A stretch of DNA of 64,000 bases from Alphaproteobacteria bacterium (GTDB lineage Bacteria; Pseudomonadota; Alphaproteobacteria; Ferrovibrionales; Ferrovibrionaceae). A model generated the notes under the pieces. The model did no database searches. It saw nothing but the letters and a program-made list of their open reading frames with translations, and was not told the DNA's origin. The DNA lies in NCBI GenBank assembly GCA_947473805.1, contig CANJGB010000012.1:1-64000 (forward strand), in the 5' to 3' direction. The position numbers and the translations under genes are program-made. This document shows positions 74 to 38,672 of this stretch, one piece after another (position 1 is the first letter of the stretch; the number at the start of each line of letters is the position of its first letter).

Positions 74-241
74 AATCACACGGGCTGAATCTCTCACAAC
101 CCTTGGATCACCGTTAGGGGTCAGACCAAAAGCATCTTCAGAATAAATGCCTATGACGCTCGTTCTTCTGGCCTCGCGCGCGCCGCTGGTGATAATGCCG
201 CTGTCGCTTTGAACCGGCATCAAGCCGGACACGGAGGAAAT

Positions 242-1471
242 GTGCCGAAAGAAATTGCACCGCTCAAAGGCGTGCACGTCATCGAATGCGCTTTGCTCTC
301 GCCCGACGGGGTCGCCCAGCACTTGGCCGATCTCGGCGCCGAGGTCATTAAGGTTGAGGCGCCAGGTGGCGGCGACTATGTCCGCACCCTGACCTGGCCG
401 ATCATCGATGGCGTTTCGCTGGAACACTGGCACTGGAACCGCGGCAAGCGCAGCATCGTGCTCGACCTGCGCCAGCCTGAAGGTGTCGAAGTGTTCCTCG
501 ATCTGGTGCGCGGCGCCGATGCGGTGATCGAGGGCATGCGCCACGGCGCGCTCGACCGCCGCGGCCTGACATGGGAAAAGCTGCGCGCCGTGAAGCCCAA
601 TCTCGTGCTCTGCCGCGTGTCCGGTTATGGCGGCAGCGGGCCGTACCGTGATGTGCCCAGCCACGGCCTGGCCTTCGATTCCATGTCCGGCGTCGCACCG
701 CCGGCAAATACGCCCGATGGCTTCACGATGATCCCGTCGCACACCTCCGTCGGCATCAATGCCGGGCCGCTTTATGCCGCCTTTGGCATCGTGTCGGCGC
801 TGCTGCAGGCGCGCACGACGGGGGAGGGCTGCGTCTTCGAGGTGGCCCAGGCCGATGCCGCCATCGCCTGGAACTGGCTGCGCGTCGAAGGGGAAAAGGC
901 CTACGAGAATCCGGCTGTCACCGACAATGACGGCAACAAGGGCGCTGCCCGCCGCGTGATCGGCTGGGATGATTTCGCCGCCGCCGTCCGCTACCAGTAC
1001 TACGGCACCAGCGACGGCCATGTCCTTTTCATGGCGTCGGAGCGCAAGTTCTGGAAAATCTTTTGCGATCGCGTCGGCCGGCCCGACCTGTTCGAAAAGT
1101 GGCCGGGCAAGGAGATCGGCGATCACGCGCTGGGCAATGGCGAGTTGCGGCGCGAACTGACCGCCATCTTCAAATCCCGCACCAGCGCCGACTGGCTGCG
1201 CTTCGGCATGGAGACCGAGGTGCCGATCGCGCCGGTCTACGACGCAAAGACCGTGCGGTCCGACCCCCAGGTCCAGGACCGCATCCGCTGGTGGCCGGCC
1301 GCCCGGCACGGCACCGACCTTATGCAGCCGCCGATCCGCCTGCTGGAGGGTGAACTTCCGGCACCGTCGCGCGCGCCCACGTTGGGCCAGCACACGGACG
1401 AAATTCTGCGTGACCTGGGCTATGGCGATGCCCGCATTTCCGGCCTGCGCAAGGGCGGGGTGCTGGGGTGA
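242..1471 (+). CDS. CaiB/BaiF family III CoA-transferase
   Basis: Predicted to move CoA between acyl-CoA and a free carboxylic acid in the cytoplasm. The family N-terminus is clear (PLKGVHVIECALLSPDG, then LGAEVIKVEAPGGGDYVR). The Asp that forms the acyl-anhydride intermediate in formyl-CoA transferase appears conserved in the segment EVAQADAAIAWNW (about residue 205). At 409 residues it has normal family length. I chose the GTG at 242 because GGAGG lies at 233-237 just before it; an upstream in-frame TTG at 209 has no such site. The substrate cannot be read from sequence. It stands alone before a DUF3126 gene. Confidence 0.9.
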   Translation: MPKEIAPLKGVHVIECALLSPDGVAQHLADLGAEVIKVEAPGGGDYVRTLTWPIIDGVSLEHWHWNRGKRSIVLDLRQPEGVEVFLDLVRGADAVIEGMRHGALDRRGLTWEKLRAVKPNLVLCRVSGYGGSGPYRDVPSHGLAFDSMSGVAPPANTPDGFTMIPSHTSVGINAGPLYAAFGIVSALLQARTTGEGCVFEVAQADAAIAWNWLRVEGEKAYENPAVTDNDGNKGAARRVIGWDDFAAAVRYQYYGTSDGHVLFMASERKFWKIFCDRVGRPDLFEKWPGKEIGDHALGNGELRRELTAIFKSRTSADWLRFGMETEVPIAPVYDAKTVRSDPQVQDRIRWWPAARHGTDLMQPPIRLLEGELPAPSRAPTLGQHTDEILRDLGYGDARISGLRKGGVLG

Positions 1472-1544
1472 GGGGCGGGCACGCGGTTGGGACTTGCAGA
1501 AACTGCCGAAAAGGCTAAATCGTCGGGAGTAGCCGGAGGAAACC

Positions 1545-1757
1545 ATGACCCCGATCGAAATTGGCCGCGTACAGGCCCATCTGCGCAAGGCGCTGGATAA
1601 CAACCGCATCGCCATTAAGATGCCCGCCCGCAAGGGCGGCCCGGTAGAGGTAGTGGTCGGCAACGACTTCCTCGGCGTGCTGCATCGCGACGAGGACGAG
1701 GGCGAGGTCTCCTTCGACCTCCACATCTCGATCCTCGAGGAAGACCTGCGCGAATAG
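1545..1757 (+). CDS. DUF3126 family protein
   Basis: A 70-residue cytoplasmic protein matching the small DUF3126 family as I know it: start MTPIEIGRVQAHLRKAL, a middle VEVVVGNDFLGVLHRDEDEG and an acidic C-terminal tail ILEEDLRE. Function is unknown; the family is described from Alphaproteobacteria and is useful here mainly as a taxonomic marker. CGGAGG about eight bases upstream supports the start. It is followed 7 bases later by the convergent end of an alpha/beta hydrolase gene. Confidence 0.88.
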   Translation: MTPIEIGRVQAHLRKALDNNRIAIKMPARKGGPVEVVVGNDFLGVLHRDEDEGEVSFDLHISILEEDLRE

Positions 1758-1764
1758 GCGCAGG

Positions 1765-2481
1765 TCAGCCTGCGGCCAGCAGCAGCCGGGCCAGGTCGTC
1801 CGGCGTGTCCAGCATCGGGTGATGGCCGCTCGGCAGTTCGTGAAATTGCCAACGCGGGTCTTTCCGCAGCGGCGCCGAATGCCGCTTCAACGTTTCCGAC
1901 CTGTAATTGGCTCCCAGCACATAGACCAGGCTCGGCACCTGGCGCCACGCACCGGTCAGCCGGATTGGCTCGATGAACGTCGCCAGCGGCTGAGGTGTGC
2001 ACAGGTTATCGACCAGGGCGCGGTCGGCGGCAGTGGCGATGTCGAAACTCTGTGCCGGCACCGGCTTGACCAGCCAGCCGCCACCTTCTTTTGATGCCGT
2101 CTCGAAAAACAGGTCCTTGCGCGCCGGGGCCAAGAGCTCCGCCACGGTGTCGCCGTCGTTCGGCACCAGGGCGTCGCAATAGACCAGTGACCTGAACATG
2201 TCAGGATGCCGGTCCGCCACGCCGGTGACGATCATCCCTCCATAGCTGTGTCCAACCAGCACGGCATCGGACAGCCGCTCGAAGCGCACCAATTCCGCGA
2301 TCTCGTCGATATGGCTGCTCAGGTTGATGCCGCTGTGCAGCGATGCCGCGCGATCGGCAATGCCCGAAAGCGAGGGCGCGAATACCCGGTGGCCGTCGGC
2401 GACAAGGCGGTCGGCAATCCCCCGCCACAGCCAGCCGCCGTGGAAGGCGCCGGGAATCAGCACGAACGGGCTTTTCGGCAT
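1765..2481 (-). CDS. Alpha/beta hydrolase (EstC / salicylate-esterase-like)
   Basis: A 238-residue soluble hydrolase. FVLIPGAFHGGWLW is the oxyanion-hole strand, GHSYGG is the nucleophile elbow (Ser), and ELPSGHHPMLDTP carries the C-terminal His. This is the layout of the small esterase group that includes plant methyl-salicylate esterase and bacterial EstC-like enzymes. The start MPKSPFV is preferred because GGAGGAG lies just upstream; a longer frame to 2541 has no site. It diverges from a second hydrolase across a promoter-like region with a palindrome. The substrate is unknown; an ester of a small aromatic or alicyclic acid is possible. Confidence 0.85.
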   Translation of the reverse strand: MPKSPFVLIPGAFHGGWLWRGIADRLVADGHRVFAPSLSGIADRAASLHSGINLSSHIDEIAELVRFERLSDAVLVGHSYGGMIVTGVADRHPDMFRSLVYCDALVPNDGDTVAELLAPARKDLFFETASKEGGGWLVKPVPAQSFDIATAADRALVDNLCTPQPLATFIEPIRLTGAWRQVPSLVYVLGANYRSETLKRHSAPLRKDPRWQFHELPSGHHPMLDTPDDLARLLLAAG

Positions 2482-2514
2482 GGGCGTCTCCTCCTGCCCG
2501 CATCCAGGCGCGGG

Positions 2515-2557
2515 TTGACCATCGCCGCAAGATGCTAGCATATTCAGTAGGTACCTA
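2515..2557 (+). promoter_or_regulatory. Putative promoter with palindromic operator TAGGTACCTA
   Basis: TTGACC (2515-2520), an 18-base spacer, then CATATT (2539-2544) make a plausible sigma-70 promoter. The perfect 10-bp palindrome TAGGTACCTA (2548-2557) lies at the expected transcription start, a normal repressor position. The MarR gene at 5200, four genes down the same run, is the nearest candidate regulator. If the promoter is right, the ATG at 2532 lies upstream of the transcript, which supports the GTG at 2574 as the start of the next gene. Confidence 0.5.
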
Positions 2558-2573
2558 TCTAATAGGGGGGAAC

Positions 2574-3344
2574 GTGACGGCGGAAAACACGCTGGCAGAC
2601 GGTGAGGTGGCGATCAATCTGCGCCGCGATGGCAAGGGCGCGCCGCTCCTGTTCCTGCACGGCGCGCTGGGCCAGTTTTCCTGGCCGGCCGCCTTGGCAA
2701 GTCTCGCCAGCCGGTTCGATGTCATTGCCCCCGACCTGCCGGGCTTCGGCGCTACGCCCCGGCCGGAAAGGGTGACCCGGGTCGAGGACATCGCCTATGT
2801 CATGCTCGACCTCATCGAGCGCCTGGGCGCCGGGCCGGTACATCTTGTCGGCCATTCACTCGGCGGCTGGGTGGCGCTGGAAATGGCCATCCGCTCGACC
2901 GCTTCCATCCGCAGCCTCGTTCTGGCCGATGCCGCCGGTATCCGCGTCCGCGACGTGCCGCGCGCCGACCTGTTTCGCCACGGCCCGACGGACCTCGCGA
3001 AACTCGTCTATGCCACTGGCGCGGACCAGGCCGAGTGGCTGGCGAACGCAGAGAACGCCATGGTGCACGAGGCGAACCGCTACACCCTGGCGCGCCTGTC
3101 GTGGCAGCCGCAGCTGCACAATCCGCAACTGCAGAAATGGCTGCATCGCATCCACGTGCCCACGCTGGTTGTCTGGGGCGACCAGGACCGCGTGCTGCCG
3201 CCCGCCCATGCCCATGCCCTCGCGGCCGCCATCGACGGCGCCACGGTCGCGCTCATGCCTGGCTGCGGCCACATGGCGCCCATTGAACGACCCGAAGCGT
3301 TCTCGGATATCGTCACGCGGTTCATCGACGGGGTGACGCCATGA
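2574..3344 (+). CDS. Alpha/beta fold hydrolase
   Basis: A 256-residue hydrolase of the meta-cleavage-product/haloalkane group: LLFLHGALGQFSWP (oxyanion strand), APDLPGFGATPRP, nucleophile elbow GHSLGG (Ser), PTLVVWGDQDRVLPP (acid) and MPGCGHMAPIERP (His). All catalytic elements are present. The GTG start is chosen over an ATG at 2532 because a G-run (2565-2570) precedes it and the promoter-like elements overlap the ATG. Its last four bases overlap the next gene (ATGA), so the two are translationally coupled. It probably hydrolyses a product or substrate of the adjacent monooxygenase pathway. Confidence 0.85.
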   Translation: MTAENTLADGEVAINLRRDGKGAPLLFLHGALGQFSWPAALASLASRFDVIAPDLPGFGATPRPERVTRVEDIAYVMLDLIERLGAGPVHLVGHSLGGWVALEMAIRSTASIRSLVLADAAGIRVRDVPRADLFRHGPTDLAKLVYATGADQAEWLANAENAMVHEANRYTLARLSWQPQLHNPQLQKWLHRIHVPTLVVWGDQDRVLPPAHAHALAAAIDGATVALMPGCGHMAPIERPEAFSDIVTRFIDGVTP

Positions 3345-4525
3345 ACGTGTTCATGTTCCACCTCATGCCCTATGCCGATCTCGACATGACCTATGTCGAG
3401 AAGTACTCGACCGACTGGGTCGTCCTGCCGAACACCTATTACGATCCGGCCAAGGGACACGTTCTCTACAACCGTTATCTCGACGAACTGGAGCTTGCCG
3501 CCGAACTGGGCTTTGACGGCATTTCGGTCAACGAACACCACCAGACGGCCTATGGCATGATGCCGTCGCCCATCGTGACGGCGGCAGCGCTGTCGCGCCG
3601 GACGAAGAACTGCAAGATTGCCATTCTCGGCAATGCCTTCTGCCTGCGCGACCAGCCGCTGACGCTGGCCGAAGAGCACGCGATGATCGACAACATCACC
3701 GGCGGACGGCTGATCTCCGGCATGGTGCGCGGCATCGGCGCGGAATATTACTCCATCGGCGTCAACCCGACCCTGTCGCACGCCCGCTTCCAGGAGGCGC
3801 ACGACCTTGTAATCCAGGCCTGGACCCGCCCGGGCCCGTTCAGGTTCGAGGGCGAGCACTACAATTTCGACTATGTGAACCTGTGGCCGCGGCCGTTCCA
3901 GCAGCCGCACCCGCCGATCTGGTGTCCGTCAACGGGCAGCAACGAAACCATCGAATGGGCCAGCCATCCGTCGCGCAAGTATGTCTATGTGCAGACCTAC
4001 AGCCCGCTGTCATCTGTCGAACGCTACCTGAACCTCTATCGCCAGACCGCGCGCGACGTGCACGGCTATGATGCCGCCAGCACGCAGATCGCCTGGGCCG
4101 CGCCGATCTATGTGGGCGAGACCGACGAGTCGGCACTGGAGGAAGCGGGGCCGCATATCGAAGCCTTGTTCAACAAGTTCCTGAAGCTGGAACTGGAGCT
4201 GCACTTTCCGCCCGGCTACATCTCGGCGGAATCGTGGAAGGCGATGGTGCAGCACCGGCGCAAGCCGATGGAGGGTGCCAACAATGCCCGTGCGCTGCGC
4301 GATCTCGGCGTCTTCGTCTGCGGCAGCGCCGACACCGTGCGGCGCAAACTGACCGAGGCCCATGCCCGGCTTGGCTTCCAGAATTTCCTTGGCCTGCTGC
4401 AGTTCGGCACCCTGCCGCGCGACCTGACCGACCGCAACATCCGGCGTTTTGCCGCCGAGGTCATGCCGGCGCTGAAGGAACTGGACGACCGGCAGTACCA
4501 GGGCTTCCAGCCCGTGAAGGCCTGA
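3341..4525 (+). CDS. LLM-class flavin-dependent monooxygenase
   Basis: A 394-residue luciferase-like (bacterial luciferase superfamily) protein with a TIM-barrel fold. The family segment NEHHQTAYGMMPSPI is followed by a conserved GGRLISGMVRGIGAEY loop and RFQEAHDLVIQAWT. Such enzymes oxidise substrates with reduced FMN or F420 and O2. The GTG/ATG overlap with the hydrolase upstream and the short gap to the EthD-like gene place it in one operon. Together with two hydrolases and a MarR regulator it suggests an oxidative degradation pathway. Substrate and flavin type cannot be read from sequence. Confidence 0.88.
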   Translation: MNVFMFHLMPYADLDMTYVEKYSTDWVVLPNTYYDPAKGHVLYNRYLDELELAAELGFDGISVNEHHQTAYGMMPSPIVTAAALSRRTKNCKIAILGNAFCLRDQPLTLAEEHAMIDNITGGRLISGMVRGIGAEYYSIGVNPTLSHARFQEAHDLVIQAWTRPGPFRFEGEHYNFDYVNLWPRPFQQPHPPIWCPSTGSNETIEWASHPSRKYVYVQTYSPLSSVERYLNLYRQTARDVHGYDAASTQIAWAAPIYVGETDESALEEAGPHIEALFNKFLKLELELHFPPGYISAESWKAMVQHRRKPMEGANNARALRDLGVFVCGSADTVRRKLTEAHARLGFQNFLGLLQFGTLPRDLTDRNIRRFAAEVMPALKELDDRQYQGFQPVKA

Positions 4526-4536
4526 AGGAGAAGACA

Positions 4537-5199
4537 ATGGCGGAGATGATCCTGCTGGCCCTGACCAACCCGGTTACGGGCCGCGATGCCGACTACAATG
4601 CCTGGTATGACGACATTCACCTGGCCGATGTGCTGCGTGTGCCCGGCGTTACCTGGGCGCAGCGTTTTGCCGGCGCGCCAGGGCAGGGGACGCTGCCGCT
4701 CAACTACCTGGCCATCTATGGCGTCGCCGACGACAAGGCAGTGGCTGCCGGACTCGGATCGCGGCGTGGCACGCCTTTGATGATGATGACCGACGCGCTC
4801 GATGGCGACATCACCAAGACGGTCATGGCGCGCGCGCAGGGCGAGCGCGTGACACCCGGCGCACCGTCGCCGCCGCCCAACGGGTTCGACCGCTATGTCG
4901 CGGTGGTCAACGGCGTTCCCGCCGGCGATGCCGCGTTCGACGCCCATCTCGACGGCATCGTCCTGCCGGCCCTGGCCGGCATTCCGGGCGTGGCGGCGGC
5001 GCGGTCATGGGCGCTGGCCCCGCACCAGACCAAGGCGACCGTCACCGACAAGCGCGTCATTATCTGCAAGTTGCACGACCGGCAGGCGGCGCGCCCTGGC
5101 CTCGACAAGGCAATGGCCGACCTCACGGCAAAATTCCACCGCACCCTCGACTTCGCCACCATCTATTCGCCGCGCGGCCCCCGCCATCAGGCGGCCTAG
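4537..5199 (+). CDS. EthD-like dimeric alpha/beta-barrel protein
   Basis: A 220-residue protein that looks like two ferredoxin-like (dimeric alpha/beta-barrel) units. The first carries the typical YNAWYDDIHLADVL and VPGVTWAQRF segments; the second begins about residue 110 (DRYVAVVNGVPAGD) and has AHLDGIVLPALAGIPG. Relatives are often accessory or small-molecule-binding proteins in degradation operons; no catalytic role is proven. AAGGAG at 4525-4530 supports the start, and the gene follows the monooxygenase by 11 bases. It ends directly against the MarR start codon. Confidence 0.75.
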   Translation: MAEMILLALTNPVTGRDADYNAWYDDIHLADVLRVPGVTWAQRFAGAPGQGTLPLNYLAIYGVADDKAVAAGLGSRRGTPLMMMTDALDGDITKTVMARAQGERVTPGAPSPPPNGFDRYVAVVNGVPAGDAAFDAHLDGIVLPALAGIPGVAAARSWALAPHQTKATVTDKRVIICKLHDRQAARPGLDKAMADLTAKFHRTLDFATIYSPRGPRHQAA

Positions 5200-5658
5200 A
5201 TGGCGACAGTGCGTACGCGTAAAAGCGAATTTGCCGTTGCGACCGAGACCATCGGCTTCCTGGTCTGGAGTGCGGCGCGGTCCTACAGCCGCCACTTCGC
5301 GGCGCGCATCGCCCGCCACGGCATTACACTCGGCGTCTGGCCTGTCCTGCGCGCGCTGGCCGAAACGCCGGGCCTGACCCAACGCGATCTGTCGCTGCAG
5401 ACTGGCATGAAGGGACCGACGATCGTCGATCTCGTCGTGCAGCTCGAGGAAAAGAAGCTGGTTCGCCGCGTCCGCAACACCGAGGATCGGCGCAAGGCCA
5501 GTCTGTTCCTGACCGAGCGCGGGCAATCTGTCTTTGCCGCCGCGCTGCCCGACATCGCGGCGGTGCACAAACTGGCGGTCGCCGGCATGTCGCGGCGCGA
5601 CCAGGACCTGCTCCGCACCCTGTTGCAGCGCGTGCATACGAATATCCGCGGCGCGTAG
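5200..5658 (+). CDS. MarR family transcriptional regulator
   Basis: A 152-residue winged-helix regulator. GLTQRDLSLQTGMKGPTIVDLVVQLEEKKLV is split between the two recognition helices, followed by the wing RRVRNTEDRRKASLFLTERG. The start codon sits immediately after the preceding TAG, so it is co-transcribed with the hydrolase, monooxygenase and EthD-like genes and is the obvious local regulator. MarR dimers bind short palindromes, which fits TAGGTACCTA at 2548-2557. The effector is probably a pathway substrate (inference). Confidence 0.9.
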   Translation: MATVRTRKSEFAVATETIGFLVWSAARSYSRHFAARIARHGITLGVWPVLRALAETPGLTQRDLSLQTGMKGPTIVDLVVQLEEKKLVRRVRNTEDRRKASLFLTERGQSVFAAALPDIAAVHKLAVAGMSRRDQDLLRTLLQRVHTNIRGA

Positions 5659-5722
5659 TTCGGGGCTTTGGGCGCGCACCGGGTCGTGCGATTGTCAGTA
5701 AAAGCCGAGGGAGGAAGCCGGC

Positions 5723-6142
5723 GTGAACGATTTGCTGCCATTGAAGCCGCTGCCCGAACCGAATGACCTGACCCGCCCGTTCTGGGAGGCCTGCCGTCGT
5801 CACGAACTGCGCATCCAGCGCTGTTTGTCCTGCGGCCGCTTGATCCACTACCCGAAGATCATTTGTCCCTATGACCACGGCACCGAATTCGACTGGGTGC
5901 GGGTCAGCGGGCGCGGCACGGTCTACTCCTTTGTCGGCGCGTATCGTGCCTTCCACCCGGGCTTCCAGCCCGACCTGCCCTACACCATCGCCATCGTCGA
6001 ACTGGAGGAGGGGCCCCACATGATGACAAATGTCATGCTGCCTCCCGCCGAGGTCGAGATCGGCATGAAGGTCGAGGTCGCCTTCGAGGACATCAACGAG
6101 CAGATTTCCCTGCCGAAGTTTCGCCCCGCGGGTGCGCCATGA
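5723..6142 (+). CDS. DUF35 OB-fold protein with zinc ribbon
   Basis: A 139-residue protein with a rubredoxin-like zinc-ribbon start (CLSCGRLIHYPKIICPYDHG, three Cys plus His) and a C-terminal OB fold (GRGTVYSFVGAY, IAIVELEEGPHMMTNV, VEVAFEDINE). DUF35 proteins pair with thiolase-fold enzymes and can shape their active site, as in the steroid aldolase Ltp2-ChsH2 and the archaeal thiolase/HMG-CoA synthase complex. The next gene, overlapping by ATGA, is a thiolase-fold protein, so the pair very likely forms a complex. Start is GTG with GGGAGGAAG upstream. Confidence 0.88.
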   Translation: MNDLLPLKPLPEPNDLTRPFWEACRRHELRIQRCLSCGRLIHYPKIICPYDHGTEFDWVRVSGRGTVYSFVGAYRAFHPGFQPDLPYTIAIVELEEGPHMMTNVMLPPAEVEIGMKVEVAFEDINEQISLPKFRPAGAP

Positions 6143-7302
6143 AGGGCAAGGCGATCATCTCCGGCATCGGCGAAACCGAGTACAGCCGCAATTCCGGCCT
6201 GTCCGACAAGGCGCTGCAGTTGCAGGCCATCCAGCGCGCCATCGCCGACGCCGGCCTGAAGCCGCAGGACATCGACGGCTTCATCCCCAGCGCCGTGGCG
6301 CCCAACCTCTACTATGAGGACCTGGTCGAGAATTTCGGCATCCCGGACCTGAAATACACCGCGACGCTGCACTACGGCGGCGCCAGCGGCACCGGCGGCC
6401 TGCACAGCGCCACCATGGCGGTGGCCAGTGGCGTGGCCCGCCATGTCGTCGTCATGGCGGGCCGCAACGGCGTCACCGGCAGCGGCAACATCTCGCGCAA
6501 CCTCGCCGTGACGCCGCCCAAGGCGATCCTCGACCAGGCCTCGCGGCAGTTCGAGGCGCCCTTCGGCGCGCTGGTGCCGATGCAGTTCTACGGCCTCATC
6601 GCGCGCCGGCACATGCACATGTACGGCACGACCAGCCGGCAATTGGGCGCCGTCGCGGTCACCATGCGCAGCCACGCCATGCTGAATCCAAAGGCGCTGA
6701 TGAAAAAGCCGATTACTCTTGACGACCACCAGAATTCGAAGCTGCTGGCCGATCCGTTTCGCCTGCTCGATTGCTGCATCGAGTCCGACGGCGCCGCCGC
6801 TTATGTAGTGAGCGCCGCCGATGTCGCACGTGATCTGCCAAAAAAGGCGGTGCACGTACTCGGCATCGCCGAGGGTCATCCGCCGTCGCCCTATTCCATC
6901 GCGACGCGCAACGACTTGATGGTTACCGGCGCGACGCAGGCCGGCCCGCGCGCGTTCAAGATGGCCGGCCTGAAGGCACAGGAACTGCGCGCCGCGTTCC
7001 TCTACGACCCGTTCACCTTCATGGTTATCTTCCAGCTCGAGGTTCTGGGCATCATCCCGTGGGGCGAGGCCGCGGCCTTCGTAGAAAGCGGCGGCATCGG
7101 TCTCAAGGGCAAGCTGCCGGTCAACACTCATGGCGGCCTGCACTCCCAGGCCCATTCCATGTCGGGCATCAACCATCTGTGCGAGGCGGTGAAGCAGTTG
7201 CGCGGCGAGGCGGGCCCGGCACAGCTGGCTCAGGCCGCACCGTGCATTGTCACCGGCTTTGGCGATTTCGGCGATTCCGCGGTCGCGCTGCTGGGCACCT
7301 GA
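6139..7302 (+). CDS. Thiolase-fold protein lacking the nucleophilic Cys (SCP2/Ltp2-like)
   Basis: A 387-residue member of the lipid-transfer/SCP-x thiolase group. Where thiolases have their acyl-accepting Cys this protein reads ATLHYGGASGTGGL (about residues 75-88), with Gly in its place. A C-terminal His region is present (NTHGGLHSQAHSMSG). Thiolytic activity is therefore doubtful; in the steroid-degrading Ltp2 family, which also lacks the Cys and needs a DUF35 partner, the reaction is a retro-aldol cleavage of a CoA ester. The overlapping DUF35 gene upstream fits that model. Substrate unknown. A CCCGCC/GGGCGGG hairpin (7365-7385) follows without a T-run. Confidence 0.85.
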   Translation: MKGKAIISGIGETEYSRNSGLSDKALQLQAIQRAIADAGLKPQDIDGFIPSAVAPNLYYEDLVENFGIPDLKYTATLHYGGASGTGGLHSATMAVASGVARHVVVMAGRNGVTGSGNISRNLAVTPPKAILDQASRQFEAPFGALVPMQFYGLIARRHMHMYGTTSRQLGAVAVTMRSHAMLNPKALMKKPITLDDHQNSKLLADPFRLLDCCIESDGAAAYVVSAADVARDLPKKAVHVLGIAEGHPPSPYSIATRNDLMVTGATQAGPRAFKMAGLKAQELRAAFLYDPFTFMVIFQLEVLGIIPWGEAAAFVESGGIGLKGKLPVNTHGGLHSQAHSMSGINHLCEAVKQLRGEAGPAQLAQAAPCIVTGFGDFGDSAVALLGT

Positions 7303-7386
7303 TGCCCGCGCCCTCGCTGTTCCTGCGCATCGGCTTCGGCGGGTCAGGCGCCGTCGGGATCGTCCCCGCCCCGCGCAAGGGCGGGA

Positions 7387-8874
7387 CTAGAACGCGTACG
7401 TCATGATGATCTGGCCCAGCCAGATGGTGCGATCGTTCGCATCGGTCGCGCCCAGCGCCTGCTTCTGGCCGTTGCCAGGCCGGCCCATGGCCAGCGTGGG
7501 CGCCAGCGCGACGCCCGGCACGGGCGTCGTCCAGGTCGCATAGAGGTCGACCTCGTCCATCAGGTGCTTCGATGTCGCGCCGGCTTGCGTCGGCTTGTCG
7601 AAGTCGTGGCGGAAATAGGCCAGCCCTACTTTCAACACCTCGTTCAGCGGCTCGACTTCGAAACCGACATAGTGGCTGTTCAGGTTAGTGTTCGCGCCCA
7701 CGTACTGGCTGTAGATCTGTCCCTGCGTCCAGGTCGTCCCGCCACGCGGGCCGGCATCCGAATACAGCGGGTCCCACGAACGATCCACCGTGTCGGTGCC
7801 GTTGCTGTCGCCACTGAAGTGCGCGTAGCGCCAGGTGACCATCGGCTTCCACGGCAGGGCCGAGAATGTGTATTGCGGCTGCACGTACCAGGCACCGGCG
7901 CGCACCGTGCCGCCGTTCGATCCAGCGGTGTTGCGCTGGCGCGCCCACTCGCCGTACAGCGCCAGGTCTTCCAGGCCGGGAATGAAGCTGCCGCCGGCCC
8001 GCAGGCTATAGGACTGCAGCCCATCGCGATTGGCCGTAGCTACACCGCCGCCCTGGCTGCCAGTGAACGAAAAGTCGTGGTCGGCGTCATAGACCTTGAT
8101 GTAGGTCACGCCGACCGACCATTTCCGTTTGGCATAGTCGAACCGTCCCTCGTCGTTTTCCGACGACTGGAACCATTCGACATTCGCGCCGTACATTTTG
8201 GTCGCCGGATTGTCGGCGGCACGCATGCGCTTCTGATCGACGCCGGATTCGAGATGGAACAGGTCGGCGCGCACCGGTTCGGTATTGAGCTTGAGGATTG
8301 CCGTCCGTTCGAACGTGTTGCGTGGGCCCAGGTAATAGGCGGCGCGCCCACCTCCATCCAGCGTACCGTTGGTCAGCAGGAAGCCGTCGCCGACGGTGAA
8401 TTCCTGGTTTCCGACGGAAATATCCAGCGCGTTCGGCGCGACGACGTCACCGAACAGAAGGCCCGAGCGCCAGCCGACATACAGGTCGTTAAGCGCCAGA
8501 TATTCCGGCTGGTCCGATGTGGTCGAGGTCGCGCCAGCCTCGCCTGCGCCACGCGTCGCAGTCGCGACGACCGAGGCCTTGCCATAGGCTTCGCCGGCGT
8601 TGGTGTCCTGCCATTCGAAGCCGACCGTCGGCTTGACGAAGCCCTCCATCCACTGCCGCCCGCCCGCCCGTTCGCGGCTGCGGCTTGTCGTGCCGATGCC
8701 GTGCTGGGCGTTCTGTACCGACTGGAAACTGGTGGCGGTATCGACAGTGAAGGTGAAGTCGACCGGGCCCAGGCTGAACGGCAGGCCGCGCTCTTCATCG
8801 GCATGGGCAGGAAGGGCGACAAGCAGGACAAGTCCGGCGATTTTGGCGCGGTAACGCGGCACGACTTCCCTCAT
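7387..8874 (-). CDS. Outer-membrane porin, alginate-export (AlgE-like) type
   Basis: A 495-residue beta-barrel protein. It has a signal peptide (KIAGLVLLVALPAHA, cleavage before DEERG), alternating amphipathic strands throughout (for example TWRYAHFSGDSNG, HYVGFEVEPLNEVLKVGLAYFRHDF) and a C-terminal aromatic residue (GQIIMTYAF) typical of BAM-assembled proteins. The strand pattern and length match the alginate-export-like barrel family; the real solute is unknown. The ATG at 8874 is listed, but the GTG five codons on (8862) has a better AGGGAA site and still leaves a full signal peptide. It diverges from a secreted protein over a Fur-box-like element. Confidence 0.8.
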   Translation of the reverse strand: MREVVPRYRAKIAGLVLLVALPAHADEERGLPFSLGPVDFTFTVDTATSFQSVQNAQHGIGTTSRSRERAGGRQWMEGFVKPTVGFEWQDTNAGEAYGKASVVATATRGAGEAGATSTTSDQPEYLALNDLYVGWRSGLLFGDVVAPNALDISVGNQEFTVGDGFLLTNGTLDGGGRAAYYLGPRNTFERTAILKLNTEPVRADLFHLESGVDQKRMRAADNPATKMYGANVEWFQSSENDEGRFDYAKRKWSVGVTYIKVYDADHDFSFTGSQGGGVATANRDGLQSYSLRAGGSFIPGLEDLALYGEWARQRNTAGSNGGTVRAGAWYVQPQYTFSALPWKPMVTWRYAHFSGDSNGTDTVDRSWDPLYSDAGPRGGTTWTQGQIYSQYVGANTNLNSHYVGFEVEPLNEVLKVGLAYFRHDFDKPTQAGATSKHLMDEVDLYATWTTPVPGVALAPTLAMGRPGNGQKQALGATDANDRTIWLGQIIMTYAF

Positions 8875-8888
8875 CTTGTCAGGATTTA

Positions 8889-8913
8889 ATTGCGATCTAT
8901 TCTCATAAGCAAT
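8889..8913. promoter_or_regulatory. Possible Fur-box-like inverted repeat
   Basis: ATTGC (8889-8893) and GCAAT (8909-8913) flank 15 bases. On the minus strand the centre reads TTATGAGAATAGATCGC, sharing the ATGAGAAT core common in Fur boxes. It lies between the divergent porin and secreted-protein genes, where it could control both. The match is partial, so this is a suggestion. Confidence 0.35.
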
Positions 8914-8967
8914 AAGGTCTCGCGCGTCCTTGACTCCGAAACGAGCCGCAACCCGCGAGGAAAGCCC

Positions 8968-9582
8968 ATGCTTCGCCGTACCTTAATCCAGTTCAGCGCG
9001 CTGGCCTTTGCTTTTGCCGCGCCGGCGTGGGCCCAGTCGGGCCAGGGCACGGCGTCGGGCGGCGTCAGCAGCCAGGACTGTTCCAGCATGCACACCACCC
9101 TTCAGCAGGGTGACAATGCGCAGACCGTCGGCAACGGGTCGGCCAAATCCGGCGGCGGCTTTGCGGACGGTTACACCGACAATGACCAGTTGCGGTCCGC
9201 CACCTCGGGCACGGGGCAGTATGTGGAGAATGGTGTTCCGCTCCTCGGCGTCAGCGGGGGTGGCGGCAACGGCAGTTACGACTTCACCCTTTCGATAAAT
9301 TTTGGCGCGCGAGCGATCAGCGGCGCGTTCAACAACACTAATGTTTTCAGTGGGCTGAATGCAGTGCTCAGTGCTGGCCTGCCGGTGTCTCAGGGATATG
9401 CCAGCAATACCGGCCCGGTCTTCGTTACCAACACGATCCCGTGCATCATCGGCGGGTCTTGCACCGGCTCGGTCGCGCTGTTCAACAGCGGAGGCAAGCT
9501 GGCCAGCGAGGCCTCCCACAGCCTCAGCGTAACCAACGGCGGCGCCCCCTCGGTCGGTGGTAGCGTGGCCCAGAAGCAGTAG
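8968..9582 (+). CDS. Unrecognised secreted protein
   Basis: A 204-residue protein I do not recognise. It has a clear signal peptide (LRRTLIQFSALAFAFAAPAWA, cleavage before QSGQG). The mature part is rich in Gly, Ser, Asn and Thr, with three Cys (DCSS, PCII, SCTG) and a middle strand-like section YDFTLSINFGARAISGAFNN, and it ends in a low-complexity VGGSVAQKQ tail. The composition suggests an extracytoplasmic beta-rich protein. The start is chosen for the GCGAGG site upstream and the intact signal sequence. It diverges from the porin gene and may share its control. No function is proposed. Confidence 0.75.
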   Translation: MLRRTLIQFSALAFAFAAPAWAQSGQGTASGGVSSQDCSSMHTTLQQGDNAQTVGNGSAKSGGGFADGYTDNDQLRSATSGTGQYVENGVPLLGVSGGGGNGSYDFTLSINFGARAISGAFNNTNVFSGLNAVLSAGLPVSQGYASNTGPVFVTNTIPCIIGGSCTGSVALFNSGGKLASEASHSLSVTNGGAPSVGGSVAQKQ

Positions 9583-32805: not shown

Positions 32806-33594
32806 ATGGCGGCGGCAGGCAGGACACGGGCGACGGGCGGCGCGACGACCGGCGAAAACGGACCGGTGAAGAAGAGCAAGACCGCGATCCTGCTGGCGCG
32901 CGACATCGTGCGCGCCATCTACGAGAACAAGCTGAAGCCCGGCGACCGCTACTTCTCCGAGGAGGAGGCGTTGCGCCGCCACGGCGTTGCCCGCAACACG
33001 CTGCGCGAGGCGCTGCGCTATCTCGAATTCCAGGGCGCGCTGGAAATCCGCCCGGGTCCCGGCGGTGGTGCCGTCGTGGCGCAGCCGGACTGGACGCACC
33101 TGGCCTCCACCCTGGCCCTGCTGCTGCAATTCGCCAATGCGCCTTTGCGTTCGGTGTTCGAGGCGCGGGTGGCCATCGATCCCGGCATGGCCGAACTGGC
33201 CGCCCGCAATGCCGGCGCCGACGATCTTGCCCGCCTCGACGACGCGCTGGCGCAGGTCGAGGCGAACCTCGGCGACTACCGCAAGTTCCACCAGGCCTAT
33301 ATGCGCTTCTGGGACCATCTCGCCGCCAGCACCGGCAACGCGATCTTGGCCCTGCTGACGCCGTCGATGCGGCGCATCATCCACAGCGCCGTGTTCGTGC
33401 CGACCGAGCCGTCGCGCGCCGACCTCTTGGTCCGCCTGCGCCGCATCCGCGACGCCGTCGCCCGCCACGACGAACCCGGTGCGCGCCTCGCCACCAGCGA
33501 GTTTGATTCCGACCTGCTTGCCCGCCTGACCAAGGCCTATCCCCGCCAGCTCGAAGGCGTGGTCGCCTGGTCGGACGTCGACCTGAATCCGTAA
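32806..33594 (+). CDS. GntR family regulator, FCD (FadR) subfamily
   Basis: A 262-residue regulator. The N-terminal winged helix spans about residues 25-95 (LKPGDRYFSEEEALRRHG, VARNTLREALRYLEFQGAL, then the wing IRPGPGGGAVV). The C-terminal all-helical FCD domain has the metal-ligand pattern (RVAIDPGMAELAA, FHQAYMRFWDHLAA). A Gly/Thr-rich leader precedes the HTH. FCD regulators sense organic acids, acyl-CoAs or amino acids. Candidate targets are the flanking macAB and UGSC units; no operator is obvious. The 201 bases to macA hold no other gene; TATAAG at 32774 is a weak -10 candidate. Confidence 0.9.
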   Translation: MAAAGRTRATGGATTGENGPVKKSKTAILLARDIVRAIYENKLKPGDRYFSEEEALRRHGVARNTLREALRYLEFQGALEIRPGPGGGAVVAQPDWTHLASTLALLLQFANAPLRSVFEARVAIDPGMAELAARNAGADDLARLDDALAQVEANLGDYRKFHQAYMRFWDHLAASTGNAILALLTPSMRRIIHSAVFVPTEPSRADLLVRLRRIRDAVARHDEPGARLATSEFDSDLLARLTKAYPRQLEGVVAWSDVDLNP

Positions 33595-33690: not shown

Positions 33691-33733
33691 CGGCGCCTCC
33701 TGGGCGTCGCCGCGCCATGACCGCTTTTGACCC

Positions 33734-33772
33734 TTGACCGCCAATCACTGATACTTGTATAACTAATTATCA
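33734..33772 (+). promoter_or_regulatory. Putative promoter with AT-rich dyad (operator) for the NifU-like/UGSC operon
   Basis: TTGACC (33734-33739), 18 bases, then TATAAC (33758-33763) is the best sigma-70 promoter candidate seen in the window; a second TTGACC is at 33727. The -10 lies inside an imperfect dyad with ends TGATA (33749) and TATCA (to 33772), in a striking AT-rich island in GC-rich DNA. A GGCGGG/CCCGCC hairpin follows in the leader near 33779-33797. Confidence 0.55.
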
Positions 33773-33852
33773 GGGTCTGGCGGGTCACGCCCCGCCATGG
33801 CAATTTTACGCCCGAATTTGGCGCCCCAGCGGCCCCACCAAGGGAGTGGAAA

Positions 33853-34092
33853 ATGTCCGTAGCCGAGAATCTCGTGCAGCAGTTCCAGCGGATGGTGAAT
33901 TTCGACGGCGGCAAGCTGACCTTGCTGGGCGTCGAGGGGAACCTCATCCGCATCGCCTACAAGTCGGGCACCGATCCGACCTGCGAAGACGGTGTCTGCG
34001 TCCTGCCGCATCTCGAACTGCAGGCGCTGATGAGCGAGACGCTCGCCCGCCGCGATCCCAATCTTCAGGTCCGCGTCGAACCCGTGAACTGA
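33853..34092 (+). CDS. Small NifU C-terminal-like protein with CX4C motif
   Basis: A 79-residue protein whose pattern follows the NifU C-terminal scaffold domain: FDGGKLTLLGVEGNLIRIAY, then a Cys pair, then LELQALMSETLARRDPNLQVRVEPV. The usual CxxC Fe-S pair is replaced by CEDGVC (CX4C, about residues 44-49). Whether it carries an Fe-S cluster is open. GGGAG before the ATG supports the start. It is the first gene after a strong promoter-like element and is followed 42 bases later by the UGSC-family gene, suggesting joint work on thiol or Fe-S chemistry (inference). Confidence 0.7.
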   Translation: MSVAENLVQQFQRMVNFDGGKLTLLGVEGNLIRIAYKSGTDPTCEDGVCVLPHLELQALMSETLARRDPNLQVRVEPVN

Positions 34093-34134
34093 GCCTCAAG
34101 GCTCACAAAAGAATTTTCCTTGGGAGGAAAAACA

Positions 34135-35871
34135 ATGGACAGGACACCGACCGATCTTGCCGTCCGGCTGACCATTATCAATCCGGTCGCCGAGCCAGAT
34201 TCCCATGCCAATGGCTCCGAGCGGTTCCCGCCGGCCAAGCGGCCGAAGAGCCTCGATAACAAGACCGTCGCCCTGTACTGGAACGGCAAGCAGAACGGCC
34301 CCGACGCCCTGGTCCGCACCAAGGAAAACCTGGCCAGGCAGTACAAGGGCATCAAGTTCATCGACATCATCGGCGAGAAGGGCGGTACCAACCGCTATCT
34401 CTCTGAAGAGCAGCTCGACATGCTGAAGGAAAAGGCCGACGCGGTGGTCTGCACCTCCGCCGATTGCGGCTCGTGCACCTCGTGGCTGATCCGCGACCTG
34501 TGCGAGCTCGAACGCCGCGGCGTTCCCGCCATCGGCTACACCGCCGCCATTTTCGATGACGACGCGCATTTCAGCTGCACCGTGTTCGGCGTGCCCGAGG
34601 CGGTGCCGGTGATCGTGCCGGAATGCTTCTCGAACAAGACCGCCGCCGAAATCCACAAGATGGTCGATGACGCCTGGGACAAGGTGATCGACGGCCTGAC
34701 CAAGGACCGCAAGGTCAAGGACGAGCTGCCCAGCTTCGAGGGCATGGTGCTGGAAAAGGCGCCGGAACTGCATTTCGAGGGCGCCGACCTGATGGACGCG
34801 TTCGAGGGCATGCAGCGCCAGTTCATCAAGAACTTCTGGTCCGACGGACTGCCGCTGATCCCGCCGACCAAGAAGAAGGTCGACGCGATGATCGCGGCAA
34901 GCGGCCATGACGGCGACCATGTTGTCGGCAAGTTCGCGCCCGGCATGGGCGTGGGCACGGTGCGCAAGATCGCCGCCAATGCGGTCATGGCCGGCTGCCG
35001 GCCCGACCACATGCCGATCATCATGGCGATGATGGAGTGCATTCTCGAGCCGTCGATCGGCCTGCGCACCTGGGCGATGTCCACCGGTCCGCAATTCCCC
35101 ATCGTCATGGTGTCGGGCGCCTATGCCGAGAAGATCGGCATGAACAACGGCATCTGCGCGCTGGGGCCGGGCTCGATTTCCGAGGTGAACATCGTCATCG
35201 GCCGCGCGCTGCGCCTGATCATGATGAATGTCGGCCTGTCCTATCCGGGCATCACCGACATGGACACCATCGGCACCCCGAACAAGTTCTCGTGCGTCGT
35301 CGCCGAAAACGAGAAGCGCAACCCGTGGGATTCATGGCGCGTGCAGCAGGGCTTCAAGCCCCACGACACCACCGTCACCGTCAACGTGCCCTACGGCATG
35401 ACCGAATTGTTCGACTTCCAGAACTCCGATCCGGAACTGCTGATCGAGGGCTGGGCCACGCTGTCCAGCAACGCGGTCGGCTCGCCCGCCCAGGCGGTCT
35501 GGCTGGTCAAGACCAACGCACCGCTGTCGGAAGGCTATCCGTTCCATGGCGCCTTCTCGAACCTGTTGCTGATGGCGCCGGACCATGCGTCGGTGTTCTC
35601 GAAGGCCGGCTGGTCGATCGACGACATCAAGCAGGCGATCCACCGCAAGACGCGCATCGAGTTCCGCAAGGCGATGATCAACAAGTCGTACGACGGCTTC
35701 AAGACCGCGCACCCGGAACTGCAGTGGCTGCTGGACCAGCCCGAGACGATGGTCTCGGTCAGCCCCAGCGCCGACTGCTACGAGTTCTTCGTGGTCGGCG
35801 CCTCGGCCGGCCGCAGCCAGTACTGCTTCGGCGGCACCAACTCGGTGACCAAGGCGGTCAAGCTGCCATAA
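34135..35871 (+). CDS. UGSC-family protein (cysteine form of a selenoprotein family) with conserved C-terminal domain
   Basis: A 578-residue two-domain cytoplasmic protein with no signal peptide. The N-domain (about 1-190) is UGSC-like: a Rossmann-type core and the redox motif CTSADCGSCTSW, with Cys111 where relatives may carry selenocysteine (codon TGC here, not TGA). The C-domain (about 225-578) has DGLPLIPPTKKKVDAM, VRKIAANAVMAGCRPDH and GPGSISEVNIVIGRALRL, a conserved block of unknown function. I recall the UGSC motif from selenoproteome surveys; the reaction is unknown. ATG at 34135 follows GGGAGG. A clear terminator ends the unit. Confidence 0.75.
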   Translation: MDRTPTDLAVRLTIINPVAEPDSHANGSERFPPAKRPKSLDNKTVALYWNGKQNGPDALVRTKENLARQYKGIKFIDIIGEKGGTNRYLSEEQLDMLKEKADAVVCTSADCGSCTSWLIRDLCELERRGVPAIGYTAAIFDDDAHFSCTVFGVPEAVPVIVPECFSNKTAAEIHKMVDDAWDKVIDGLTKDRKVKDELPSFEGMVLEKAPELHFEGADLMDAFEGMQRQFIKNFWSDGLPLIPPTKKKVDAMIAASGHDGDHVVGKFAPGMGVGTVRKIAANAVMAGCRPDHMPIIMAMMECILEPSIGLRTWAMSTGPQFPIVMVSGAYAEKIGMNNGICALGPGSISEVNIVIGRALRLIMMNVGLSYPGITDMDTIGTPNKFSCVVAENEKRNPWDSWRVQQGFKPHDTTVTVNVPYGMTELFDFQNSDPELLIEGWATLSSNAVGSPAQAVWLVKTNAPLSEGYPFHGAFSNLLLMAPDHASVFSKAGWSIDDIKQAIHRKTRIEFRKAMINKSYDGFKTAHPELQWLLDQPETMVSVSPSADCYEFFVVGASAGRSQYCFGGTNSVTKAVKLP

Positions 35872-35900
35872 CCGCATTCCGGCTTGCCGGTTTCGGAAAA

Positions 35901-35927
35901 GCCCCTGCGCAAGCAGGGGCCTTTTTC
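35901..35927 (+). terminator. Rho-independent terminator
   Basis: GCCCCTGC, loop GCAA, GCAGGGGC, then CTTTTT: a textbook terminator 30 bases past the UGSC gene. It separates that operon from the binding-protein genes. The rest of 35928-36110 holds no gene or clear promoter. Confidence 0.92.
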
Positions 35928-36110: not shown

Positions 36111-37307
36111 ATGAAGAAAATCGCAAGTCTTGCGGCCGCCGCCGCGCTGCTGGCCGGCACCGCATTGGCGCAGCCGAACGCGCCGGTGAAGATCGGCGTG
36201 CTGACCGATCTCACCAGTGTATTTGCCGCCTTCGACGGCCCCGGCTCGGTCGAGGCCGGCCGTCTCGCGGTCGAGGATGTCGGCAACGTGCTGGGGCGGC
36301 CGGTCGAACTGATCGCCGCCGACCACCAGAACAAGCCCGACGTGGCGCTGACCCTTGCGCGCAAGTGGTTCGACTCCGATGGCGTCGATGCCATTTTCGA
36401 CGTTGCCAATTCGTCCATCGCGCTGGCCGTCAACACGCTGGCCGGCGAGAAGAAGAAGATCGTCATCTTTACCGCGCCGACCAATGACGGCATGACCGAA
36501 CAGGCCTGCAACGGCTATGGCTTCGCCTGGGTCTACGACGCCTATTCGCTGTTCCGTCCGTCAATCCTGTACCAGGCGAAGAACGGCGGCGACACCTGGT
36601 TCACCCTGGTGCCCGACTATGCCTCCGGCGTGATCATGGAAAACGTGGTGAGCGAGGTCCTGCCCGCGGTCGGCGGCAAGATCGTCGGCTCGGTGCGTGC
36701 CCCGCTCGGCGGCGCCGACTTCTCGTCCTACATCCTCCAGGCCCAGGCCTCGAAGGCGAAGGTCATTTTCGTCGGTCAGAACGGCCCCGACCTGATCAAC
36801 CTGCTGAAGCAGATGCGCGAGTTCGGCGTTGCCGAAAAGGGCCAGCGCATCGTCCTGAACGGCATCCACGACACCGACATCCGCGCCATCGGCCAGGACG
36901 TGCTGCAGGACATCTCGGTCGCCACGCCGTGGTACTGGGACATGGACGACCAGACCCGTGCCTTCGCCAAGCGGTTCATGCCGCGCGTCAACACCTCGCC
37001 GGGCTGGATTCATGCCGGCACGTATTCTGCGGTGCTGAACTACCTCAAGGCGGTCAACGCCGCCGGGTCGAAGGATTCCGACAAGGTGCGCGAGGCGCTG
37101 TTCAAGTTGAAGATCGACGACATGTTCGCGCGCAATGCGACCCTGCGCCCGAACGGCCGGCTGATCCACGATTTCTACCAGATCCGGGTCAAGAAGCCGT
37201 CCGAGTCGAAATATCCGTGGGATTACCAGCAGGTAGTGGCAACCATCGCGGCCAATGACGCCTTCCGCCCGTTGTCCGACACCAAGTGCCCGCTGGTGAA
37301 GAAATAA
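36111..37307 (+). CDS. ABC transporter substrate-binding protein, Liv/HAAT type (paralogue A)
   Basis: A 398-residue periplasmic binding protein (PBP type I, leucine-binding-like). Signal peptide MKKIASLAAAAALLAGTALA, then APVKIGVLTDLTSVFAAFDG and, further in, ADHQNKPDVALTLARKW. GGAGGAAAGCC precedes the ATG. It is closely similar to the gene that follows (for example WIHAGTYSAVLNYLKAV and DDMFARNATLRPNGRLIHD), so the pair is a tandem duplication. No permease or ATPase lies nearby. Ligands in this family range from amino acids to aromatic and organic acids. Confidence 0.92.
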   Translation: MKKIASLAAAAALLAGTALAQPNAPVKIGVLTDLTSVFAAFDGPGSVEAGRLAVEDVGNVLGRPVELIAADHQNKPDVALTLARKWFDSDGVDAIFDVANSSIALAVNTLAGEKKKIVIFTAPTNDGMTEQACNGYGFAWVYDAYSLFRPSILYQAKNGGDTWFTLVPDYASGVIMENVVSEVLPAVGGKIVGSVRAPLGGADFSSYILQAQASKAKVIFVGQNGPDLINLLKQMREFGVAEKGQRIVLNGIHDTDIRAIGQDVLQDISVATPWYWDMDDQTRAFAKRFMPRVNTSPGWIHAGTYSAVLNYLKAVNAAGSKDSDKVREALFKLKIDDMFARNATLRPNGRLIHDFYQIRVKKPSESKYPWDYQQVVATIAANDAFRPLSDTKCPLVKK

Positions 37308-37316
37308 GGCGGGAAG

Positions 37317-37346
37317 GGCCGGCGGCTGGGGCCGCCGGCCGTCTTG
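37317..37346 (+). terminator. Terminator-like hairpin
   Basis: GGCCGGCGGC and GCCGCCGGCC around TGGG form a 10-bp perfect stem right after the first binding-protein gene. Only a short GTCTTG follows, so it may slow decay or attenuate rather than end transcription. Confidence 0.5.
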
Positions 37347-37466
37347 CCGTGCCCGGATTGCAGTCAATTCCGGGGTAGCATCACCAACAGGCGCTGTCCT
37401 ATGATGCGCTCCGGTTCCCCCCGCCCAACAAGGAGGCGGCGAAGGGTGACCCTAGGGAGGTTAATG

Positions 37467-38672
37467 ATGAAAACGGTTTTTGGCGCGCTCGCGGGCGCGC
37501 TGATGCTCAGCGGCGCCGCCATGGCGCAGACAGCGTCGGCCCCGGTCAAGATGGGCCTGCTCAGCGATCTCAGCAGCTCCTTCGTCGCCTTCGACGGCCC
37601 CGGCTCGGTCGAGGCGCTTCGCATGGCGATTGAGGATTTCGGCGGCTCGGCCCTGGGCAAGCCGGTCGAGCTCATCTCCGCCGACCACCAGAACAAGGCT
37701 GACGTTGCGGCGGCGCTGGCCCGCGAATGGTTCGACAGCCGCGGCGTCGACTCCATTTTTGACGTCGCCAATTCCTCCATCGCGCTCGCGATCAACACGC
37801 TCGCGCTCGAGAAGAAGAAGCTCGTCCTCTTCACCGCGCCGATCAACGACGGCATGACCGAGGCCCAGTGCAACGGCTACGGCTTCGGCTGGGTGTACGA
37901 CACCTATTCGCAGGTCCGTCCGGCGGTGAACTACACCATCAAGTCGAAGGGCATCGACACCTGGTTCACCATGGTGCCCGACTACGCCGCCGGCCACCTG
38001 ATGGGCGACATCGCCATCGAGACCATCAAGCAGAATGGCGGTCAGGTTCTGGGCAGCGTGCGCGCGCCGTTCAACGCGCCCGACTTCTCGTCCTTCATCC
38101 TGCAGGCGCAGGGCTCGAAGGCGAAGGGCCTGTTCACGGCGATGAACGGTCCCGACCTGATCAACCTGATGAAGCAGCTGGATGAGTTCGGCGTGCGCAA
38201 GACCATGGTGGTCACGCTGAACGGCATCCACGACAGCGACATCAAGGCGATCGGCGCCGACAAGTTCAAGGACATCGTCGTCTCGACGCCCTGGTACTGG
38301 GACCTGAACGACGAGACCCGCGCCTTCGCCAAGCGGTTCGAGGCCAAGATCGGCGGCAAGCCGGGCTGGATCCATGCCGGCACCTACTCCGCCGGCCTGA
38401 CCTACCTGAAGGCCGTCAAGGAAGCCGGCACGAAGGACACCGACAAGGTCCGCGAGGCGCTGTTCAAGATCAAGATCGACGACATGTTCGCCAAGAACGC
38501 CACCCTGCGTCCGAACGGCCGCCTGGTGCACGATCACTACCGCGTCCGCCTGAAGGGTGCTGCGGAAGCGAAGTATCCGTGGGACTTCGAAGAGGTCCAG
38601 GCTGTCATCCCGGCATCGGAAGCCTATCGTCCGCTGTCGGCGACTGCCTGCCCGCTGGTGAAGAAGTCCTGA
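37467..38672 (+). CDS. ABC transporter substrate-binding protein, Liv/HAAT type (paralogue B)
   Basis: A 401-residue periplasmic binding protein and near-duplicate of the previous gene. Signal peptide KTVFGALAGALMLSGAAMA, then APVKMGLLSDLSSSFVAFDG. The ligand-domain segments ADHQNKADVAAALAREW and DDMFAKNATLRPNGRLVHD match paralogue A almost word for word, and both end in CPLVKK. GGGAGG at 37455-37460 favours the second ATG (37467) of ATGATG. A strong terminator follows. Divergence at scattered surface positions suggests two related ligands. Confidence 0.92.
   Translation: MKTVFGALAGALMLSGAAMAQTASAPVKMGLLSDLSSSFVAFDGPGSVEALRMAIEDFGGSALGKPVELISADHQNKADVAAALAREWFDSRGVDSIFDVANSSIALAINTLALEKKKLVLFTAPINDGMTEAQCNGYGFGWVYDTYSQVRPAVNYTIKSKGIDTWFTMVPDYAAGHLMGDIAIETIKQNGGQVLGSVRAPFNAPDFSSFILQAQGSKAKGLFTAMNGPDLINLMKQLDEFGVRKTMVVTLNGIHDSDIKAIGADKFKDIVVSTPWYWDLNDETRAFAKRFEAKIGGKPGWIHAGTYSAGLTYLKAVKEAGTKDTDKVREALFKIKIDDMFAKNATLRPNGRLVHDHYRVRLKGAAEAKYPWDFEEVQAVIPASEAYRPLSATACPLVKKS

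Follow-up and report, generated by a model that had tools for sequence, protein, structure and literature searches.

The window, a stretch of 64,000 nucleotides of contig CANJGB010000012.1, carries a small gene for a protein with a predicted NifU fold directly upstream of a large gene for a UGSC plus Unknown_1 fusion protein, and the two are conserved, linked and co-evolving across bacterial lineages. The reading favoured here, tentatively and at a little less than an even chance, is that the pair forms a reductive enzyme that works through thiols, belongs to a catabolic unit under GntR control and is remotely related to GrdB; the small protein would serve in it as a dithiol relay. Conservation, linkage, co-evolution, the predicted NifU fold, a gene fusion in a relative and the thioredoxin-reductase neighbourhood of related systems are the observations that carry it, joined by a kinship to GrdB that is supported but remote. 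If it is true, an orphan enzyme family gains a testable job, with a GrdB-like nucleophilic thiol or selenol, a thioredoxin donor and a NifU-fold dithiol partner, and an Fe-S scaffold fold has been turned into a thiol relay. An earlier note had described a NifU-like/UGSC operon at 33734-35927; both reading frames were confirmed at the coordinates it gave. Its interpretation was upheld in part, and the thioredoxin-reductase neighbourhood, the UGSC::NifU fusion and the GrdB relationship are additional to it. The features of the locus are:

32806..33594, + strand: GntR/FCD-family regulator gene, start ATG 32806 or GTG 32866 (Pfam FCD 5.9e-16, GntR 7.6e-07)
33734..33773, + strand: promoter-like TTGACC(33734)-18-TATAAC(33758) together with the dyad that overlaps it, read directly from the sequence
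33748-33773: AT-rich dyad CTGATA-14-TATCAG over the -10 element, candidate operator
33853..34092, + strand: small NifU-fold protein, 79 aa, with Cys44 and Cys49, proposed dithiol relay
33982..33999, + strand: CEDGVC Cys pair of the small protein, residues 44-49, both Cys invariant in 19 homologues
34135..35871, + strand: UGSC plus Unknown_1 fusion protein, 578 aa, Cys form
34189..34701, + strand: UGSC domain, residues 19-189 (PF24696, 7.7e-30, 104.7 bits against a cut-off of 25)
34465..34476, + strand: CGSC motif, residues 111-114, Sec-xx-Cys in many relatives
34777..35868, + strand: Unknown_1 domain, residues about 215-578, named in PMC2398784 and without a Pfam or NCBIfam family
35901..35927, + strand: intrinsic terminator GCCCCTGC-GCAA-GCAGGGGC, then CTTTTT, from a scan (hairpin 35901-35920)
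36111-37307 and 37464-38672, + strand: two Peripla_BP_6 ABC substrate-binding proteins (Pfam 2.6e-96 and 8e-95)

The small gene runs from its ATG at 33853, directly preceded by AAGGGAG, to a stop at 34092, and the large gene from ATG 34135 to a stop at 35871, with GGGAGG at 34122-34127. A second promoter-like site (9/12) was found by the scan at 33727-33755, with 0.3 expected in shuffled sequence, and palindromes of the TAGTATACT type lie closely 5' of the unit in three related loci (L067, L070, L073). The only terminator found by the scan lies about 30 nt past the stop of the large gene; since terminator-like sites are frequent in shuffles (mean 2.2), it is its position alone that is telling. 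The description of the operon as self-contained is only partly right: the GntR/FCD gene, on the same strand, stops 258 bp short of the small gene, and a homologue from the same cluster stands beside the pair in 11 of 22 loci. Its product is likely the regulator of the small-large unit. Downstream of the unit, the tandem Peripla_BP_6 genes (36111-38672) lack adjacent permease genes. They would possibly serve uptake of the substrate of the large enzyme, and a third Peripla_BP_6 homologue is found near a fusion paralogue on contig C9 of the same genome.

Scanning the genome contigs of close relatives with the 79-residue protein alone gave no match, so an alignment of the large protein, built from the two fusion copies of the window's own genome, was used instead. 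It recovered 20 loci among 84,980 species genomes, with identities of 52-75%; they belong to Sphingomonadales, Actinobacteria, one Hyphomonadaceae MAG and one Dehalococcoidia MAG (Chloroflexota). A profile of the small protein placed the small gene immediately 5' of the large one in 17 of these loci, with gaps of -4 to 209 nt and a stop/start overlap of 4 nt in about eight; at an eighteenth locus (L072) it is on the opposite strand, some 445 bp downstream. It was not found at L070 and L071, the genome of L070 having one beside its second copy, L072. Pairwise distances of the small and large proteins were strongly correlated (Mantel r 0.835, a value reached by 0 of 10,000 permutations) in comparison sets that are modest and in which Sec was read as Cys. 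The two proteins co-evolve, and the claim that the two genes are a unit was borne out by this correlation and by the 18 of 20 loci. Homologues at these independent loci, together with the third-codon-position bias of differences, mark the small frame as a real gene: differences from the Hyphomonadaceae homologue number 25, 18 and 43 at codon positions 1, 2 and 3. Far from being absent from most genomes of close relatives that carry the large gene, the small one occurs in 17 of the 18 genomes that the scan recovered, and both Cys pairs are conserved, in 19 small and 21 large sequences. The idea that a small gene goes with every large one fails at greater distance, as it is absent from most distant UGSC systems. 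In a 398-genome sample of the phylum, the fusion and the small protein each occur only in the window's own genome, and four other genomes carry separate UGSC or Unknown_1 genes without a match to the small-protein profile.

The likeness of the small protein to the NifU C-terminal domain and NFU1 (PF01106) lies in its predicted fold, its sequence and the position of its Cys pair. The 79-residue protein itself (P0001) reaches only 12.6 bits against Pfam NifU, below the gathering score of 27, while nine of 19 homologues match the family (best E 2.2e-5). Its AlphaFold2 model (pLDDT 87.8) has the order alpha-beta-beta-alpha-beta, and Foldseek ranks NifU or NFU1 C-terminal domains in all of its first six places; these results bear out the label NifU-like. 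Alignment of the model with human NFU1 by VIA-align gave Z 8.2 and an rmsd of 2.9 over 71 residues, a score tied with that of the KH-type protein KhpB/EloR, so the fold alone is not unique. Searches of the sequences of solved structures returned no convincing relative for either the small or the large protein.

A role as Fe-S scaffold, as the earlier note had considered, found no support. The CxxC of NifU is absent from the window clade, where all 19 small proteins have CxxxxC, and a paralogue in the same genome has Cx6C. Perhaps the small protein is nevertheless a true NifU-type Fe-S carrier, with a cluster held by Cys44 and Cys49, possibly between two monomers, that would supply the large enzyme with a cluster or with single electrons, or repair its cluster. 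Its NifU fold and sequence kinship agree with this, as does a homologous domain fused to an Arthrobacter UGSC protein, which retains CxxC (CSDC) and barely passes Pfam NifU (27.2 over 27). Such a carrier is nonetheless unlikely, as a spacing that varies between CxxC, CxxxxC and Cx6C is unusual for two ligands of a cluster, the redox genes found in linkage are trxB and trxA rather than Fe-S assembly genes, and no obvious cluster motif is seen in the large protein. In contrast to NifU and NFU1, the small gene is also tied to UGSC and not to Fe-S assembly genes.

The assignment of the 578-residue protein to the UGSC family was secured by the PF24696 match. Against the equivalog model NF041046 (UGSC_fam) it scores 84.1 bits, below the NCBI cut-off of 125, and it represents a divergent subfamily. 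C111, G112 and C114 are invariant in 21 rows and S113 is replaced by G in one locus (L071), the one relative with Sec (UGGC) among the 20 closest loci. A TGA stands at the codon equivalent to Cys111 in L071 and in two loci of the window's own genome (L006, L007). One of the latter, on contig C5, has three genes, a Sec-form UGSC (VVGLGTUGSCTSWSVHD), Unknown_1 and a NifU-like protein with Cx6C, and it was the only UGSC locus among those searched with single sequences at which the small protein was detected. The other (C9:76000-92000, positions 1-9021) has a Sec-form UGSC gene with its TGA at 7657, followed by Unknown_1, and no more than about 7 kb away stand selA, selB and a gene for an Ndh-SelD fusion. 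With these genes so close to a Sec-form UGSC, the organism looks like a Sec user, yet it keeps two Cys-form fusion copies.

Fusions of this kind are not new in themselves. The 2008 Global Ocean Sampling survey of marine selenoproteins described a UGSC/Unknown_1 fusion (PMC2398784; PF24696, NF041046) that has, as far as the published text shows, the same two domains in one chain and the UxxC/CxxC motif, and it considered UGSC likely thioredoxin-like. A 2026 review counts the UGSC family among selenoproteins largely uncharacterised in function (PMC13188914). The window protein differs by its Cys form, its NifU-like partner gene and a predicted doubly wound fold; a small partner gene is not given in the text of the survey. 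In the literature consulted, the NifU partner, the thioredoxin partner and the link to GrdB appear to be new. The model of the 578-residue protein reaches a pLDDT of 77, a medium quality. Strands and helices alternate in its UGSC domain (residues 40-192) to make five units, and CGSC sits at the N-terminal end of the helix that follows strand three. The domain resembles doubly wound folds (Z up to 10.7), with no thioredoxin among the matches listed; the model favours a doubly wound alpha/beta fold over the thioredoxin-like fold suggested in 2008. The best VIA matches listed (Z 8-11) are a designed protein, B12-binding and receiver domains and the MCR-activation chain 8s7v_H; they were not counted as evidence of function, and Foldseek with the same model gave only generic alpha/beta matches. 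Unknown_1 had no relative in Pfam, NCBIfam or PDB sequences, and no NCBIfam family was matched by more than one of 18 Unknown_1 proteins.

In Arthrobacter sp. ERGS1:01 (L117) an operon runs trxB, trxA, Unknown_1, UGSC, and the UGSC protein (271 aa) ends in the C-terminal NifU domain with CSDC mentioned above, which is homologous to the small protein of the window (hhalign probability 94%, E 8.8e-8). Annotated trxB genes adjoin UGSC/Unknown_1 in Roseovarius (L079) and Variovorax SRS16 (L116), and TrxB-like flavoproteins with CxxC occur at eight further UGSC loci. Genes resembling thioredoxin reductase were thus present at none of the 22 loci of the window clade and, beyond it, at 11 of 34 (Fisher p 0.004, treating loci as independent); as several of the 11 are orthologous operons, they were counted as at least four independent lineages. 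Within the window clade no thioredoxin-reductase gene lies within about 8 kb of the pair. On the Roseovarius THAF8 plasmid (L079, 5932-7044), Unknown_1 ends in EDCADGVCAL, with CxDGVC as in the small protein of the window, and a second group of Unknown_1 proteins (L051-L054) ends in CxDC. A Cys-pair tail on every Unknown_1 was considered and rejected, as about six of some 40 have one. Taken together, the fusion, the trx neighbours and the Cys-pair tails suggest a need for a dithiol donor in UGSC systems, which would obtain it in different ways. A recurring Sec operon (L037, L039, L041, L047) joins genes for a TrxB-like flavoprotein and UGSC with two distinct Unknown_1 paralogues, a pattern that suggests a hetero-oligomer.

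Fusions from Sporomusa termitida (L077, 7941-9665) and a Vibrio europaeus plasmid (L120, 5758-7443) have lost the Cys pair (GDMGTS, ADMGTS) and both adjoin aconitase X and DUF126 genes, so the architecture can also serve without redox chemistry. Alternatively, the large protein could be a non-reductive Cys-nucleophile lyase, hydrolase or racemase-like catabolic enzyme, with the small protein keeping its thiols reduced or stabilising it. These Cys-less homologues would fit, and so would catabolic neighbours such as acyl-CoA dehydrogenases, CoA ligases, hydratases, LLM monooxygenases, CoA-transferases and TRAP/TTT/ABC binding proteins. The exchange of Sec for Cys at C111 and the recurrent linkage to trxB and trxA point instead to redox turnover, and make a non-reductive enzyme rather improbable, at about one chance in four.

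Kinship to selenoprotein B of the glycine/sarcosine/betaine reductases (GrdB) and to PrdB of D-proline reductase speaks for the reductive enzyme favoured here. A scan of 16 diverse UGSC proteins against 18,950 NCBIfam models showed just four families, apart from UGSC itself, with matches to more than one member, all of them GrdB-type: TIGR01917 (9 of 16, best 5.5e-4), NF040794 (6), TIGR01918 (6) and NF040795 (2). The similarity covers about 45-80 residues. The UGSC domain of the window aligns to GrdB-type model positions 326-369, and the Sec of GrdB is residue 350 of 436 (PMC3091704); at 13-15 bits against a TIGR01917 cut-off of 602, the curated threshold is not reached. By hhalign, UGSC and alphaproteobacterial PrdB-like UPxC proteins align with their motifs in register (P 1.9e-4), and in a separate run this comparison ranked first of 30. 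Since P 0.002 was reached by one control cluster, the GrdB claim could not stand on hhalign alone. Judged by sequence similarity, a distant kinship of UGSC to the catalytic part of selenoprotein B is probable but not certain, and the cut-offs do not make it a member of that family. The two share Sec/Cys-xx-C, followed by a helix and the pattern LE-x-x-G-[IV]-P, and the link to thioredoxin. They differ in that the window protein lies far under the family cut-offs, has no detected pyruvoyl partner, carries the extra Unknown_1 domain and occurs in catabolic surroundings of an aerobic type. In a less than exhaustive scan of neighbours no GrdE/PrdA-like partner was detected, and Unknown_1 members match no such model; Unknown_1 as GrdE/PrdA itself is unsupported, having no Pfam, NCBIfam or PDB relative. 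A PF07355 search of the window's own genome gave no match, and class-level PF07355 matches were rejected as UGSC, being UPxC PrdB-like selenoproteins instead.

By analogy with GrdB, a mechanism can be proposed, in which we infer catalysis, the roles of Cys111 and Cys114, the relay and the substrate class. The UGSC domain would present a nucleophilic thiolate at Cys111 (a selenolate in Sec relatives) at the helix N-terminus, and Unknown_1 would bind and orient the organic substrate. Cys111 may attack a polarised C-X bond, which would be cleaved or reduced, and Cys114 would resolve the intermediate to a CGSC disulphide, to be re-reduced ultimately by the thioredoxin system of the cell. As dedicated partner, the small protein would pass electrons through its Cys44/Cys49 dithiol, a place that TrxA or a Cys-pair tail might take in other UGSC systems. 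In glycine reductase, the electron path starts at NADPH and leads by way of thioredoxin reductase, thioredoxin and GrdA to GrdB; for proline reductase, PrdC has been proposed as the reductant of the PrdB selenide-sulphide (PMC3091704). In both chains a dithiol or thiol-selenol protein reduces the UxxC of PrdB or GrdB (PMC3091704); unlike PrdC (428 aa), the reductant here would be a NifU-fold protein. Cleavage of the C-F bond of fluoroacetate has been proposed for a GrdB-like complex (PMC10838667).

Genes near the pair in relatives include acyl-CoA dehydrogenases, CoA ligases, hydratases, SDRs, LLM monooxygenases and Baeyer-Villiger-like and Rieske oxygenases, and distant UGSC loci have CoA transferases and TRAP/TTT binding proteins nearby, several of these names having been read from sequence by eye and not by profile. 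Together with the two ABC binding proteins that follow the unit in the window, they indicate a breakdown of organic acids that are imported or CoA-linked. Such surroundings of uptake and CoA catabolism, along with GntR/FCD regulation that fits induction by a metabolite and a predicted fold that does not appear thioredoxin-like, leave little room for a thiol peroxidase or detoxification enzyme that would defend against oxidants or electrophiles rather than serve catabolism. That reading is very unlikely, even though CxxC/UxxC pairs and linkage to thioredoxin reductase would suit it and the title of a reference cited in PMC3091704 reports peroxidase activity of GrdB. Extending the favoured reading, UGSC/Unknown_1 proteins might be widespread thioredoxin-dependent selenol/thiol reductases in bacteria and archaea that live aerobically. 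They would be the aerobic equivalents of glycine and proline reductase, with a catabolic compound as substrate, and in one branch a NifU-type Fe-S domain would have been taken over as a dithiol carrier free of any cluster; this broader proposal is conceivable but more doubtful, at roughly one chance in three.

Two copies of the small-large pair occur in a MAG of Novosphingobium sp. Chol11 (L064, L065), named after a bile-salt degrader, one of them clustered with a Baeyer-Villiger-like monooxygenase, an acyl-CoA dehydrogenase and a Rieske oxygenase. Sec-form UGSC genes on two Paracoccus plasmids (L114, 4216-5085; L115, 4399-4968) are not annotated as such, and on pFER4 the UGSC gene is split at an in-frame TGA into two hypothetical proteins. 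Many alphaproteobacterial PrdB-like UPxC selenoproteins (PF07355; L094-L113) likewise have reading frames cut at an in-frame TGA.
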